Of a stretch of 64,000 bases of DNA, positions 20,357 to 59,787 are shown one piece after another. The stretch is from Patellaria atrata CBS 101060 (lineage: Eukaryota > Ascomycota > Dothideomycetes > Patellariales > Patellariaceae): contig MU006095.1 of assembly GCA_010093705.1 (NCBI GenBank), forward strand, positions 304,517 to 368,516, written 5' to 3'. The translations under genes and the position numbers were made by a program. The notes under the pieces were generated by a model. That model was not told where the DNA came from. It did no database searches and saw only the letters and a list, made by a program, of their open reading frames with translations. Position 1 is the stretch's first letter, and every line of letters starts with the position of its first letter.

Positions 20357-21057
20357 TCATACCACGATCTCGCGTTCTGCCATAAGATCGTATGTAGGAG
20401 TCGTCTCAGTCCACTCTTCGAATCTACCCTCATCCTTCTTTCTTTTAGCGTATGAGCTGCTTTTGGCCTCGATGAATGTCCAATCAGTAACGGAACTGTC
20501 ACCTTCTCAGATGTTAGCTGCAGAAATATTTCAGCTTAATATGGCCCTTACTTAATATTTTATCCCGTGCTAACTGCTGCATTGCGTTCCTTATCCAAGT
20601 AAGACATGTCCATTCTGGATTCTATCAGACATGTGTCAGGTATAGAACTGATGGTGCGGAGACCATGAGATCTTACATCTTGAACTATCGGTACCCTTTC
20701 TAAAGACCTTTCAAAGTTATACTGCGAACTCTTGATCTTGCCGATCAGCACCTTGACCAGAAGCCTTGCATTTTTGGTTTCTAGGAGTGGGTAGTGTTCG
20801 AATTCCCACGTAGACTTCAATGTACCATCGCGTTTCACCAGCTTGTTCGTCGCATGGTACCTATTTGTGCTATCCGGATTTGCGTCTTTGGAAGATGCAA
20901 GTAAAGCCCAGTGATTTCTAGGCGTCAGAAACATAAGTAGACCATTTTACAATGAAGGGCTGTAAAGGTAGCACAATATGAAATGCGGAACTTACTCCCC
21001 TTCTCGTTTGTGATGGTAAAGGGCAACATACAATCGATCCTTATTTCGGGATATCAT
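20357..21057 (-). CDS. Small four-exon gene, conserved fungal protein of unknown function
   Basis: Four exons join cleanly: 21057-20996, 20917-20677, 20621-20552 and 20502-20357, 172 residues. Introns are 78, 55 and 49 nt, each starting GTAAG. The product begins ISRNKDRLYVALYHH, then NHWALL, a WEFEHYPLLETKNARLLVKVLIGKI block, WTCLTWIRNAMQQL, and ends KKKDEGRFEE ... PTYDLMAEREIVV. This order (basic start, HWALL, WxFE, VRVLIAKV-like, WxxxVRxAL, KKxxGRF, PTxDLL) recurs in short ascomycete proteins of unknown function, as I remember the family. No signal peptide or membrane segment is seen. Unlike its neighbours the frame is intact over all exons. The last acceptor is a tandem GAG/AAG site, allowing one extra residue. 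The best-defined part is exon 2; function is not known. Confidence 0.68.
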
Positions 21058-53357: not shown

Positions 53358-54715
53358 CTACTTCAGAAGAATATCGTACCCGTCCTTCTCAATTCGTGTC
53401 GCTTCGGAATCGAGAGCATATTTCCGTCGGACAACTTCGAATACAATGAGGCCAGCGCTGGTGCTCGGTACCTGTCGAATCGTATTCATGAAGAAACCAC
53501 GATACAACCAGTTCCTCCACCCGCCTGCTAGCTTAGATTGTCTCTTACATTGCTCGAATGTCTCCTTGTACGCATGATAGTACAAGCGCATCACACCTCT
53601 CCGCCTCTCCAATTTAGCAGCGTAGTCCAATGATTCCAACCGTCCGAAATGGATGTTTTGTATCTCTGCTAACGGATGCTGTACCGCATGTTGCGCGATC
53701 GAAGCTCCAACTCCGGCTCCGAGTAGGAACATCGGTTCGAGCATGTAGTGAGGCCGAATCACCGGTCTGCCTTCATCGTAACTGACGGCCTTTCGTTTCG
53801 AAGCGGACGAGAAGATTGATTCGTAACTTCCATAATACCGGGTAACAAATCCATAGTAAGCTTGAGATTTAATATACTCAAATGAAGAGAAGAACACCGC
53901 CGCACCAAATGAGTCTTTGAGGAAAGACAAGGTCCAACCGGAGAATACTCCTCGAGGTCCAATCTCTCGCAATTTATGCTTTGCATACTGCCACATACTC
54001 GTATACCGTCCTTCAAGCATATCGGCGGTCTGAAAACGAACGGTCAAAGCATCCAGCGGTGCCGCAACCAAAGACTGTACTGTACCAGCCATGAAACCGG
54101 CGCCAAAGGTGTAACTTATCGGAGCCGGGGGAAACACCCGTCTAGTAGAACGAGAAGATGGTTCATGAATCAAACCGAGCGCTTGGAGATATGATGTATA
54201 TAAGACAGCACCTACGCTTCGGTGATGTTACAACAAGACCACAAACTTTCTCCGATGAAAAATAGCATACGTTACATTAGCCACCATAGGCGGGAGAACC
54301 TGCTTCGGTATAAAACCCCAGCCATGTTCTTTGACCGCATGTGCTAGCACGCCTAAAGATGTTACCCTCCACGACCACCCTTCCCCTGCTTGTATTCGTG
54401 GATTAATGGCGCGAGCATATGCCTGTTATAAGTCTCAGTAGATTTCAGAGCTCTAAAACTTTGTAGTATATACCATATAACTATGTGAAAACTGATAAGC
54501 ATAAATCTAAGATCAGATGATAAGAGAGCTTACTCTACACGAGTTCTAAAGAACGCTTTAATAGGAGCTCGAAAGTAGAATGCGATGAACTGTGAAATGA
54601 AGGCCCGTATACCAGCAGCAGAGGCACCTGTCGCCGCACTGGTTTGAGGTTTCCTTCGGGACCCATCACCGTCGTCCAGCAGATCCAGTGGGCGACCGTT
54701 GAGTGGGGAGGTCAT
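53358..54715 (-). CDS. Mitochondrial carrier family protein with a 7-nt microexon
   Basis: Four exons on the minus strand: 54715-54534, microexon 54480-54474, 54422-54271 and 54216-53358; 399 residues. The microexon TTATATG completes RTRVDYMAYARAINP; without it the frame is lost. Its flanks are normal (ACATAG acceptor, GTATAT donor). Intron 3 (GTATGC...CGAAG) completes ANVTVGAVLYTSYLQ. Three carrier repeats can be traced: APIKAFFRTR, PLDALTVRFQTAD and PLAEIQNIHFG at the matrix ends of odd helices. The usual PxDxx(K/R) signature is weak in each, so substrate prediction is not possible. It is a divergent, apparently fungal-specific carrier. The start lies 341 bp from divergent SPT16. Confidence 0.82.
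54474..54480 (-). other. 7-nt microexon of the mitochondrial carrier gene
   Basis: Sequence TTATATG, preceded by ACATAG and followed by GTATAT on the minus strand. Joining the preceding GA and following GCA gives Asp-Tyr-Met-Ala and restores the conserved order between exon 1 and exon 3. Direct joining of exon 1 to exon 3 puts the downstream exon out of frame. Confidence 0.75.
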
Positions 54716-55056: not shown

Positions 55057-58000
55057 ATGTCTGACGATCAAATTGTCATCGATAAGCGTCTTTTCCACGA
55101 TAGAATAGCTTCCTTCATAGCGGCGTGGAAGGCAGACAAGCGATCCGGCGACGCGTTATTCAGTGGAATCGGCTCACTTGTTATCGTCGTCGGCAAAGCG
55201 AGCGATGGTATCTATTCGAAAAGCGCGGCATTTCAGGTATTTTGGAGTCCATTTAGTTTTGATAGTTTGTTTGCTAACTTATGTCTCTATAGCTATGGCT
55301 GTTAGGCTACGAGTTTCCCGCTACCCTTCTAATCCTCACCCAAGAGAATATCTACATTGTTACAACGAAGAAGAAAGGTATGGTCTGAGGTCATTAGAAT
55401 TAGGCATCCACTAACAGTATCATAGCCTCATACCTCGAAAAGTTGAAAGACGGCAAAACTCCCGTTGAGATATTCGTGCGTGGCAAAGATGCAGAGGAGA
55501 ATGCGAAACAATTTGAGAAATGCCTAGAAGTCATCAAGGGTGCAGGTGTGAGTCATAAAAGTGATAGCGTCATATTGAGACCCTTGACTGACATGTCTTG
55601 CAGAAGAAAGTCGGCGTGTTAACAAAGGATGCTGCAACTGGACCATTCGGCGATGAGTGGTCCAAAGCATTCGGCGAGGTCTCAAAAGATCTTGAAACCG
55701 TCGACATTTCTCCAGTTTTGTCTGGTGCCGCTCTGGCGATCAAAGATGAGAAAGAATTGGTACGTAACCCCCACAAATAGTTCTCCATCCGTTGAAAATA
55801 CTGATTTTTCGTAGCGAACAATCCGAGATGCATCTAGAGCATCAAGCGGTGTATTAGCAAATTACTTTGTCGAAGAAATGTCCGATATCCTTGATGCGGA
55901 GAAAAAGATTACACATAAAGCACTGGCAGACAAGGTTTCAGCGAAAGTGGATGATACCAAGTTTTTCCAGAAGCTCAGAGTCAGCAAGGATTTCGATCAC
56001 ATGCAACTCGATTGGAGTCTTTTCCCCACGGTACAGAGCGGCGGCAAATATGACCTAAAATTTGGCGAACCAGACGAAAACAACCTCCATGCCGGTACAA
56101 TTATCGCGGCCCTTGGATTGCGATATATGTCATATTCGTCAGTAATCGCTCGAACATACATGGTCGATCCAAACAAATCGCAAGAGAACAACTACAAGCT
56201 GTTACTTTCGATTCACGAAACTGTTCTGGCCGCAATCAAAGACGGCGTACAAGCTAAAGATGTCTACAACAAAGCGTTGAATTTCCTCAAATCCAAGAAA
56301 CCCGACCTGGAAAAGCATTTTGTCAAGAATGTGGGAGCAGGTGTCGGTATTGAGAGTCGTGATAATACTCTCATTCTCAACGCAAAGAGCACCCGTACCC
56401 TTAAGGATGGCATGACTCTCAGTATCACAACTGGATTCAGCGATCTACAGAATTCCAATCCTCAGGATAAGAAGAGTAACGTCTATTCGATGGTGATTAC
56501 TGATACAGTTCGTGTCACAGCTAGAGATACAGTTGTCTTCACCAAGGATGCCCCCTCAGACGTAGAGTCGGTTTCGTTTTTCTTCAAAGATGATGAGGAG
56601 CCGGAGGTCAAACCGAAGCCGAAGAAGGATTCAAAAGTTGGTGCCGTTGCACAAACAAACATCACTAAATCCCGGCTCCGCAATGATCGTACCACAAACC
56701 AAAACGAAGAGAAGGAAGCTGCTCGACGAGAGCATCAGAAAGAACTTCACTCTAAGAAGCAACAACAAGGTTTGGAGAAGTATGGTCCAGGTGCAGGAAG
56801 CTTGAACGGTACAGAGGAGAAGAAGTTCAAGCGATTCGAATCTTACAAGCGCGACAATCAATTCCCTCCGAAGGTAAAAGATCTTGCTGTTGTGGTTGAT
56901 GCGAAGAGTAGCACTATTGTTCTGCCTATTATGGGTCGTCCCGTTCCATTCCACATCAACACGATCAAGAACGCTAGCCATACTCCTGATGGTGATGTTA
57001 CTTATCTGAGGATTAACTTCCTCTCTCCTGGTCAGGGTGTTGGTCGTAAAGATGATCAACCCTTTGAGGATGCTTCGGCACATTTTATTCGTAGTTTAAC
57101 GTTCAAGTCCAAGGATATTGACCGCATGGAGGAAGTTGTCAAACAGATCACCGAGCTGAAGAAGAACGCCGTTCGCAGAGAGCAGGAAAAGAAACAGATG
57201 GAAGACGTCGTCGAGCAAGATCAACTAATTACCATCAAGAGTGAGTCCACCCCACATCTCCTTTTCTCACGTTACTATCTTCAAGCGTGGCAATTAACCC
57301 TTTATAAGACCGCAAACCCTACAAACTCGACATGATCTTCGTGCGTCCCGCGCTCGACGGCAAACGCGTCCCCGGGCATGTTGAGATCCACCAGAACGGT
57401 CTGCGCTACATCCATGGTCAAAACATGCAGAAAATCGACATTCTGTTCAGCAATATCAAGCACCTTTTCTTCCAGCCGAGTCAGCATGAGCTCATCGTCA
57501 TAATCCACGTCCATTTGTTGAATCCGATCATGATCGGTAAAAAAAAAGCGAAGGATGTCCAGTTTTACAGAGAGGCGACTGAGATGCAGTTCGACGAGAC
57601 CGGGAACAGGAAGCGCAAACACAGATACGGCGACGAGGAAGAATTTGAAGCAGAGCAAGAAGAACGCAGACGCCGCGCAGAACTAGACAAACACTTCAAG
57701 AAATTCGCCGAGCAGATCGCCGACGCAGGCCGCAACGAGAACCTCTCAGTCGACATCCCCTTCCGCGAACTCGGCTTCAACGGCGTCCCAGCCCGCTCTT
57801 CCGTAATGGTCCAACCGACCACGGACTGCCTGGTCCAACTCACCGAACCGCCCTTCCTTGTCCTCAGCCTCAACGAAATCGAAATCGTCCATTTGGAGCG
57901 TGTCCAGTTCGGCCTCAAGAACTTCGACATGGTCGTCGTTTTTAAAGACTTCAATCGCCCCCCCGCTCACATCAACACCATCCCCGTCGAGTCCCTCGAC

Positions 58001-58402
58001 GCAGTCAAGGACTGGCTCGACAGCGTCGAGATCCCCTTCTCCGAGGGCCCGCTTAACCTCAACTGGGCCACCATCATGAAGACCGTCACGAGCGATCCGC
58101 ACGAGTTCTTTAAGCACGGTGGCTGGAGCTTCATCGCCGCCGAGTCGGACGAGGAGGATGAAGAGGAGAGCGAGGAGGAGAGCGCGTTTGAGATTAGTGA
58201 GAGCGAGCTGGAGGAGGCGAGTGAGAGTTCGGAGGATGATAGCGAGTTTGATGAGAATGCGTCGATGGAGGAGGGGAGTGAGGAGAGTGAAGATGAGGAG
58301 GGCGAGGATTGGGATGAGCTGGAAAGGAAGGCGAGGAGGAAGGATCGGGAGGGGGGGCTGAGTGATGAGGAGAAGCCGAAGGGGAAGGGGAAGAAGAGGT
58401 AG
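55057..58402 (+). CDS. SPT16: FACT complex subunit Spt16 (histone chaperone)
   Basis: Six exons: 55057-55236, 55293-55377, 55426-55547, 55604-55759, 55815-57240 and 57309-58402; 1020 residues, as usual for the family. The N-terminal pita-bread (aminopeptidase-like) domain begins [13 protein letters not shown] and includes [15 protein letters not shown] and [10 protein letters not shown]; catalytic metal ligands are not expected. The middle domain has [23 protein letters not shown] and INFLSPGQG. The Rtt106-like part carries [22 protein letters not shown] and [29 protein letters not shown] precedes the acidic tail rich in Asp/Glu/Ser that binds H2A-H2B, then a basic end. Spt16 with Pob3 reorganises nucleosomes during transcription and replication. 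Complete and certainly essential. Confidence 0.98.
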
Positions 58403-58893
58403 GTTTGGGGTTTGACTTGAGTGCCTTACCCTTCTCTTCGTAGGCGTGACAGAATGCTTTGAATCAGTTGGGCCGGGATGGGAAAAAGTTGTTTATGCAA
58501 GCGTAGAATGGGCAATTTTCAAGTAACTCGGTATGGCGTCGGCTGATTCTGAGCTATTTGCGGACTTTCTCTTAGCCCCCATGTTCGAGCTAGTATTGAT
58601 ATGATATCATGGAATGTATAGTGGATATCGGTTTCTCAGGATCTGATGAAGTTTGTTTGAAATCAGCTTCATTAAATTCGTAATATTGAACAAATATCAA
58701 CGTGAACGGGTACGTTAGCCGGGGTGTGTATGTGCAACCTGGGGGAAATTCTCCTCTCGACTTTCCCATCCTCCCTTTCAGTCTCCATCCGAGCGCATAT
58801 GAAACAAGTAGCCAAAATTACCGACGATATGAATATGACACCGATTGTTAACTTCGCTCATCTGCCCTCCTCTCGCATCTCTCTCGAACCGTT
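58403..58893. other. Spacer between convergent SPT16 and SUR7-like genes
   Basis: 490 bases between two 3' ends. Contains an unlikely short plus-strand frame starting 58724 that overlaps the next gene antisense. No gene is called. Confidence 0.55.
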
Positions 58894-59787
58894 TTACGAA
58901 TACTCATCCTTTACGCGTCCCCTCTCCCCGTCGACAAAGCTGCCCCTCGACCTCGTGCTCCTCTTGCGCCCGAACTTGCTAAACAGGCCTCCACCACCAG
59001 ATCTTCTTCCAGAGCTGGCATAAGTGTTATCGCGTCTTCCGACGGCGCCACCGCAGCAGAAGAGGATAGTGGACAGGAAGAAGCAGGCCACGGCGGCCCA
59101 TGTGAAGCCGTAAGCTTTGACGCCGAGTTTGGCGGGCTGGTCGTTGGAGCGGAAGTGGTTGCGGCCGAGGACGGTCCAGGCGCTGTATCCAAGGTTAGCT
59201 GGGTTGAATCGACGGGGGATACGAGAGGAGGGACTCACGTCATCAAGCACGCAGCCAAAGTCTGGAAGAACAGAGCGAGCGAAGTCATCAAGCCACCCAA
59301 ATATCCCCCGAGACGGCTGAAGAGAGCGAGGAGACCGAGGGCCAACGCGCACGCCGCGAAGAAGAGCGCGATGAGGTAAAAGGCGAACATGAATCTGGAG
59401 AGGTAGAAGAAGCGTTTCGTGCCGATGAACTGGTCCGCGATGCCCTGCTCGGTGCCGAAGTTACGCGGCGGGTCGAAGGGGAGGGCTGGGACGGGTGAGC
59501 CGCAGTCGGCGTTGTGGCCGGAGGAGTCACGGCCGCAGATGGCGAAGAAGGTCCATCGGGAGGGGTTGCGCGCGCCGGGGATTCCGGACGTCGCGGCTTG
59601 CAGAAAGTAGATCCCGTCGAGGGGGGAGGAGTTTACGGCACCGGTTAGGATGACGAGGAATTGGAGGAGGATGCCGCCGGCGAGGATGACGAGGGAGAGG
59701 AGAGCGAGGATGGGACCTGCGAGTATGGGGTTAGAGGTGAAATTGGAGAATTGGAGACGAGGAGAAGGACGTACGTCCGCCGGCCAT
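58894..59787 (-). CDS. SUR7/PalI-family four-TM membrane protein
   Basis: Exons 59787-59775 (13 nt), 59716-59239 and 59182-58894 give 259 residues. The 13-nt first exon encodes MAGG plus one base. TM1 is PILALLSLVILAGGILLQFLVIL; the first extracellular loop carries NSSPLDGIYFLQA and the WTFFAICG...NADCG cysteine pair of this family. TM2-3 (YLSRFMFAFYLIALFF, GLMTSLALFFQTLAACLM) and TM4 (AAVACFFLSTILFCCGG) follow, and the tail is Arg/Ser-rich (GRKRSTRSRGS). Sur7 proteins sit in eisosome/MCC plasma-membrane patches; PalI relatives sense pH. Which one this is cannot be told. Start choice depends on the tiny exon, supported by consensus splice sites. Confidence 0.85.

Follow-up and report, generated by a model that had tools for sequence, protein, structure and literature searches.

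A seven-base segment, TTATATG, at positions 54474..54480 on the minus strand of the window (the whole stretch of DNA analysed here, 64,000 nucleotides long) is probably a constitutive coding exon between two ordinary short introns of a mitochondrial-carrier-like gene. We put the probability of this reading at roughly 0.85; inclusion in the mRNA, the order of splicing and constitutive use are the parts of it that we infer. The exon is very probably real and adds a further case to the ultra-short exons already known from fungi. The first-pass annotation had given the segment, its flanks (ACATAG and GTATAT) and its coordinates correctly, and its proposal of a 7-nt exon in a gene of this type comes out clearly ahead of the other local models: it scores 6.72, and the best of the single-intron models reaches -1.50.

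The gene and its product

The gene lies on the minus strand from 54715 to 53358 and has four exons, separated by three introns that are all of the GT-AG type. Its features are as follows, with the total splice score given for each intron.

54534..54715, minus strand: exon 1, 182 nt, start codon ATG at 54715-54713; encodes residues 1-60 and contributes two bases to codon 61; decoded ab initio
54534..54538, minus strand: GTAGA, which could combine with the microexon's initial T into a competing donor, GTAGAT, after removal of intron 1
54481..54533, minus strand: intron 1, 53 nt, GTAAGC...ACATAG, total -1.31
54474..54480, minus strand: microexon TTATATG, 7 nt; third base of codon 61 (D) and codons 62-63 (Y, M)
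54423..54473, minus strand: intron 2, 51 nt, GTATAT...AACAG, total -0.56
54271..54422, minus strand: exon 3, 152 nt, AYARAINP...; within the paralogue alignment from residue 85 onward
54217..54270, minus strand: intron 3, 54 nt, GTATGC...CCGAAG, total -3.25; paralogue alignment gap-free over the junction
53358..54216, minus strand: exon 4, 859 nt including the stop; holds the best Mito_carr match

Joined together, the exons (182 + 7 + 152 + 859 nt) give 1200 nt in a single frame, encoding 399 amino acids and a stop, and the junction peptide with the microexon included reads RTRV-DYM-AYARA. Skipping the microexon shifts the frame and leads to a stop after 80 residues, and retention of either intron 1 or intron 2 also produces an early stop. 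At 7 nt the segment falls well within the size limit for microexons (30 nt or less), and it has plausible splice sites on both sides, belonging to GT-AG introns of 53 and 51 nt.

Splice sites in filamentous ascomycetes are reported to pair by intron definition (PMC5639578). Under our explanation, each of the two flanking introns would be recognised across its own length, as a single unit, in which case the size of the exon between them would hardly matter. Introns 1 and 2 would be removed successively, because both sites of a 7-nt exon could scarcely be occupied at once. The microexon would then supply D-Y-M, completing codon 61, and bring exon 3 into phase with exon 1. As biology the case is a modest one; that is, a 7-nt exon poses no problem under intron definition.

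Judged from its sequence, the product is a divergent mitochondrial-carrier-like protein. It matches the Pfam family Mito_carr (2.8e-19, best at residues 146-231) and belongs to that family by score, with 69.1 bits over two stretches against a curated cut-off of 22.3. Carrier repeats are marked by the signature Px[DE]xx[KR]. Strict matches to this pattern are absent from the 399 residues, the nearest forms being PIKAFF at 51, PLDALT at 167 and PLAEIQ at 295, and we therefore file the protein as carrier-like only. NCBIfam returned no family match for it, and the clear-scoring solved relatives among PDB sequences are uncoupling proteins, with weak similarity. The paralogues in the same genome are distant. 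The best of them aligns over residues 85-230 at 30% identity; the alignment begins at about residue 85, in exon 3, and is gap-free over intron 3. This supports both exon 3 and the junction that joins it to exon 4; the alignment falls short of the microexon.

We searched viral contigs, genome contigs (with two queries) and PDB sequences for a relative covering the stretch RTRVDYMAYARA, whose order the first-pass annotation had described as conserved, and found none in these collections. The N-terminal 135 amino acids had no Pfam match either with or without VDYM, so this comparison does not discriminate between the two forms. Alignments to the carrier paralogues did not discriminate either, and an alignment to the middle repeat of the same protein was too weak for use.

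Competing splice models

We scored the locus with a small gene finder that was self-trained on the same genome and in which no minimum exon length was set. For training we took 290,220 bases, some of which read N, made up of the window together with 200 kb of contig C1 and 8 small carrier loci. Training yielded 96 genes, kept at a coding score of at least 12, and 194 introns; loci L001 and L002 overlap, so one gene may count twice. The splice-site models were built from the 128 introns whose neighbouring exons are both at least 75 nt long, and because of this rule introns 1 and 2 lie outside the final set.

For the carrier-like gene, the optimum of the decoder is exactly the structure listed above. 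At the local level we enumerated 75 in-frame models, 7 of them with a single intron and 68 with two introns (60 with another middle exon and 8 with TTATATG). The runner-up, at -1.24, uses the same microexon with a different upstream donor. Taken singly, introns 1 and 2 have middling totals, which 30% and 39%, respectively, of the 128 training introns do not exceed. Both branch points are weak: 18% and 20% of the training introns do no better in this element. Intron 3 stands at the 12% rank.

It had been claimed that only TTATATG restores the frame. The segment does restore it, and the word "only" is too strong, because two other routes are also in frame, both of which drop VDYM. One is a single intron of 116 nt (54538-54423, donor GTAGAG), the best of the single-intron models at -1.50; a gene predictor that imposes a minimum exon length might settle on it. 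This intron has its acceptor in common with intron 2, and long introns do exist in the training set, where 9 of the 128 measure at least 111 nt, some of these being possible decoder errors. Its total, however, is lower than that of any of the 128 training introns, its donor is at the 1% rank, and its interior would have to hold two well-formed introns by accident. It also loses to the microexon in all six retrainings described below, and we regard it as very unlikely.

The other route would operate as a twin intron. If intron 1 were removed first, GTAGA would be joined to T, and the resulting donor, GTAGAT, could be paired with the AACAG acceptor to excise a second intron of 63 nt, giving either the main or a minor isoform. 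The product would be RTR-AYARA, in frame and without VDYM; the 116-nt intron leads to the same product, and the two routes are inseparable by mRNA alone. The junction GTAGA|T has the geometry of a [D5,6] stwintron, a class that has already been described (PMC9024468). In stwintrons, as is proposed for the present locus, two introns are removed in order, and the locus could likewise have a donor that is divided behind its fifth base (PMC9024468, PMC5639578). Stwintrons differ in that nothing is kept between the introns, whereas here keeping the 7 nt scores better: the twin route, with intron lengths that are ordinary, reaches 2.99 against 6.72. Its donor scores 1.67, a value that all but 2 of the 128 training donors exceed; for GTATAT, 30 of the 128 score no higher. 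Twin splicing also falls behind the microexon in each of the six retrainings. We consider it quite improbable as the explanation of the locus, and minor at most as a route.

As a check on chance, we replaced the interior of the region, leaving in place the first 6 nt of donor 1 and the 20 nt at the 3' end of intron 2, and looked for microexons of 1-30 nt. A frame-restoring microexon equal to or better than the observed one arose in 64 of 20,000 dinucleotide shuffles and in 27 of 10,866 real intergenic interiors. Frame-restoring microexons of any quality were common (6,216 of the shuffles and 3,597 of the intergenic interiors), and a microexon outscored the best single intron in 3,435 and 1,653 trials, respectively. 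Since about a third of trials contain a frame-restoring microexon, frame alone proves little. What is unusual at this locus is the joint quality of both introns, not the restoration of the frame.

We retrained the gene finder six times, four times without the window and twice on all sequence with other intron penalties. The microexon beat the single-intron and twin-intron rivals in every case. With an intron penalty of -8 or -10 (four of the six retrainings), the best model for the whole gene lacks exons 1-3 and begins at the internal ATG 54092; in the same four runs the 9-nt SmB exon described below was lost four times and the 5-nt PurH exon twice. Exons 1-3 might on this account lie outside the gene, a reading with which the empty Pfam result for the first 135 residues is compatible. 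The paralogue alignment argues against such a short form, starting as it does inside exon 3 and crossing intron 3 without a gap. Moreover, 54092 corresponds to residue 156, which is inside the matched carrier repeat. We give this possibility almost no weight.

A plain intron of 111 nt (54533-54423) could also be hidden by a true frameshift or by an error in the sequencing or the assembly. Such an intron would have good ends and a total of -3.22, which places it at the 12% rank among the training introns. It would require an extra indel, however, in a gene whose other exons are intact, and its length is twice the training median of 56 nt; we think it highly unlikely.

Short exons in the literature

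Fungal exons with lengths of 1, 6, 8 and 20 nt are in print (PMC12940212, PMC1184071, PMC11121469). The closest parallel is the 1-nt exon of Fusarium CYP621A, which is reported to have RNA-read support and to be common to 20 orthologues (PMC12940212). Like the exon described here, it is fungal and ultra-short, has a length not divisible by three, lies inside an apparent intron of double length and restores the phase. Unlike it, ours is 7 nt long and is called from DNA alone. P450 genes of Phanerochaete chrysosporium are described as having exons from 6 bp upwards and frequent introns of 45-55 bp (PMC1184071), and an 8-nt example from Phanerochaete is cited in PMC12940212. These genes share with ours the placement of a tiny exon among short introns; there, however, the host is a white rot basidiomycete and the genes encode P450s, whereas the present gene is carrier-like.

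Another microexon from a filamentous fungus is that of Trichoderma virens Xlr2, which is 20 nt long, is absent from the automatic gene model and is included in a glucose-dependent manner (PMC11121469). As stated by its authors, functional microexons were previously undescribed in filamentous fungi (PMC11121469). Outside this group, MPC1 has a constitutive 4-bp microexon (PMC9929638). Here too the gene encodes a mitochondrial transporter and the length is not a multiple of three; the genes are unrelated, however, and the MPC1 exon is reported to rest on exon definition.

The first-pass annotation had further suggested that this gene is probably mis-annotated in related genomes. This is plausible by analogy with cases in print, namely Xlr2 in Trichoderma and a report on microexons in plants (PMC8831610). 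In a Cryptococcus paper (PMC3990503), the word "microexon" occurs once, as a read-mapping option. Searches combining mitochondrial carriers with microexons returned sesame and autism topics only. The junction peptide strings were absent from the literature searched, the scope of which excludes most subscription journals, and we found no prior description of the 7-nt exon among the matches listed from it.

Other tiny exons in the genome

Four of the 118 internal exons in our decoding are 10 nt or shorter: the 7-nt exon described here, one of 5 nt, one of 9 nt and a zero-length artefact. The 5-nt and 9-nt exons, together with a slightly longer one, are located as follows.

C1:247250-247246, minus strand (L026, G000:C1:240001-250000): 5-nt exon CTGCC of PurH/ADE17, encoding P104-A105 in LHPAVHAGI
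C1:242500-242508, plus strand (L026, G000:C1:240001-250000): 9-nt exon CAAAACCTC of SmB, encoding QNL near the protein start
C1:179169-179141, minus strand (L019, G000:C1:170001-180000): 29-nt exon of an M16 peptidase-like gene, residues 65-74, PHTLEHLCFM

Alignments of PurH/ADE17 with the solved structures 7mgq and 1g8m are gap-free through the 5-nt exon. If it is skipped, a stop codon falls at residue 127, and no in-frame model with a single intron does better than -7.1. Elsewhere the decoded PurH model is faulty: it includes 17 residues that are absent from its relatives and are probably an intron left in. The 9-nt exon of SmB is gap-free among the alignments shown to solved relatives, of which 9l5r is the best; skipping it keeps the frame and costs three residues. 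SmB is itself a core splicing protein, here with a microexon of its own. The 29-nt exon is gap-free against 2fge, and its peptide resembles the HxxEH metal site.

These examples suggest that ultra-short fungal exons can be called from DNA, provided that the splice model has no minimum exon length. They also suggest that such exons occur in conserved genes, as in PurH and SmB, where a predictor that missed them would leave the protein broken or shortened. Extrapolated to 28 Mb, the three exons of 5-9 nt in about 330 kb would correspond to a number of the order of a hundred or more; the error is very wide, and one of the three comes from the window, which was chosen for it. In a held-out 40 kb, none of the 21 internal exons was 10 nt or shorter.

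A broader reading would combine two of these ideas. After the loss of intron 1, the locus would be read in frame both as the microexon, with VDYM, and as a [D5,6]-like twin intron, without it, to give two carrier isoforms; in addition, the genome would use exons shorter than 10 nt fairly often in conserved genes (PurH/ADE17, SmB and the present gene). Taken as a whole, we consider this combination unlikely.

The neighbouring gene provides a check on the decoder in general. SPT16, a FACT subunit, is found at window positions 55057-58402 on the plus strand, with 1020 amino acids and 5 introns, and the model aligns with solved SPT16 along nearly its whole length, which supports the decoder. It is arranged divergently to the carrier-like gene, the two start codons being 341 bp apart.

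Several minor observations were made on other decoded genes. The zero-length exon occurs in a retroelement-like gene, copia-like by look, on the minus strand at about C1:163704-165682 (L018, G000:C1:160001-170000), which the decoder could read in no other way and which is an artefact or a degraded element. Two low-scoring genes in the window are uncertain, one at 20357-21057 (coding score 12.9) and one at 58829-59498 (29.5, with biased composition). Finally, a carrier gene in L034 (G000:C2:1080001-1090000) has a 33-nt exon, C2:1085194-1085226, that encodes part of a PLDTLKFRM stretch, and its N-terminus looks EF-hand-like by eye.
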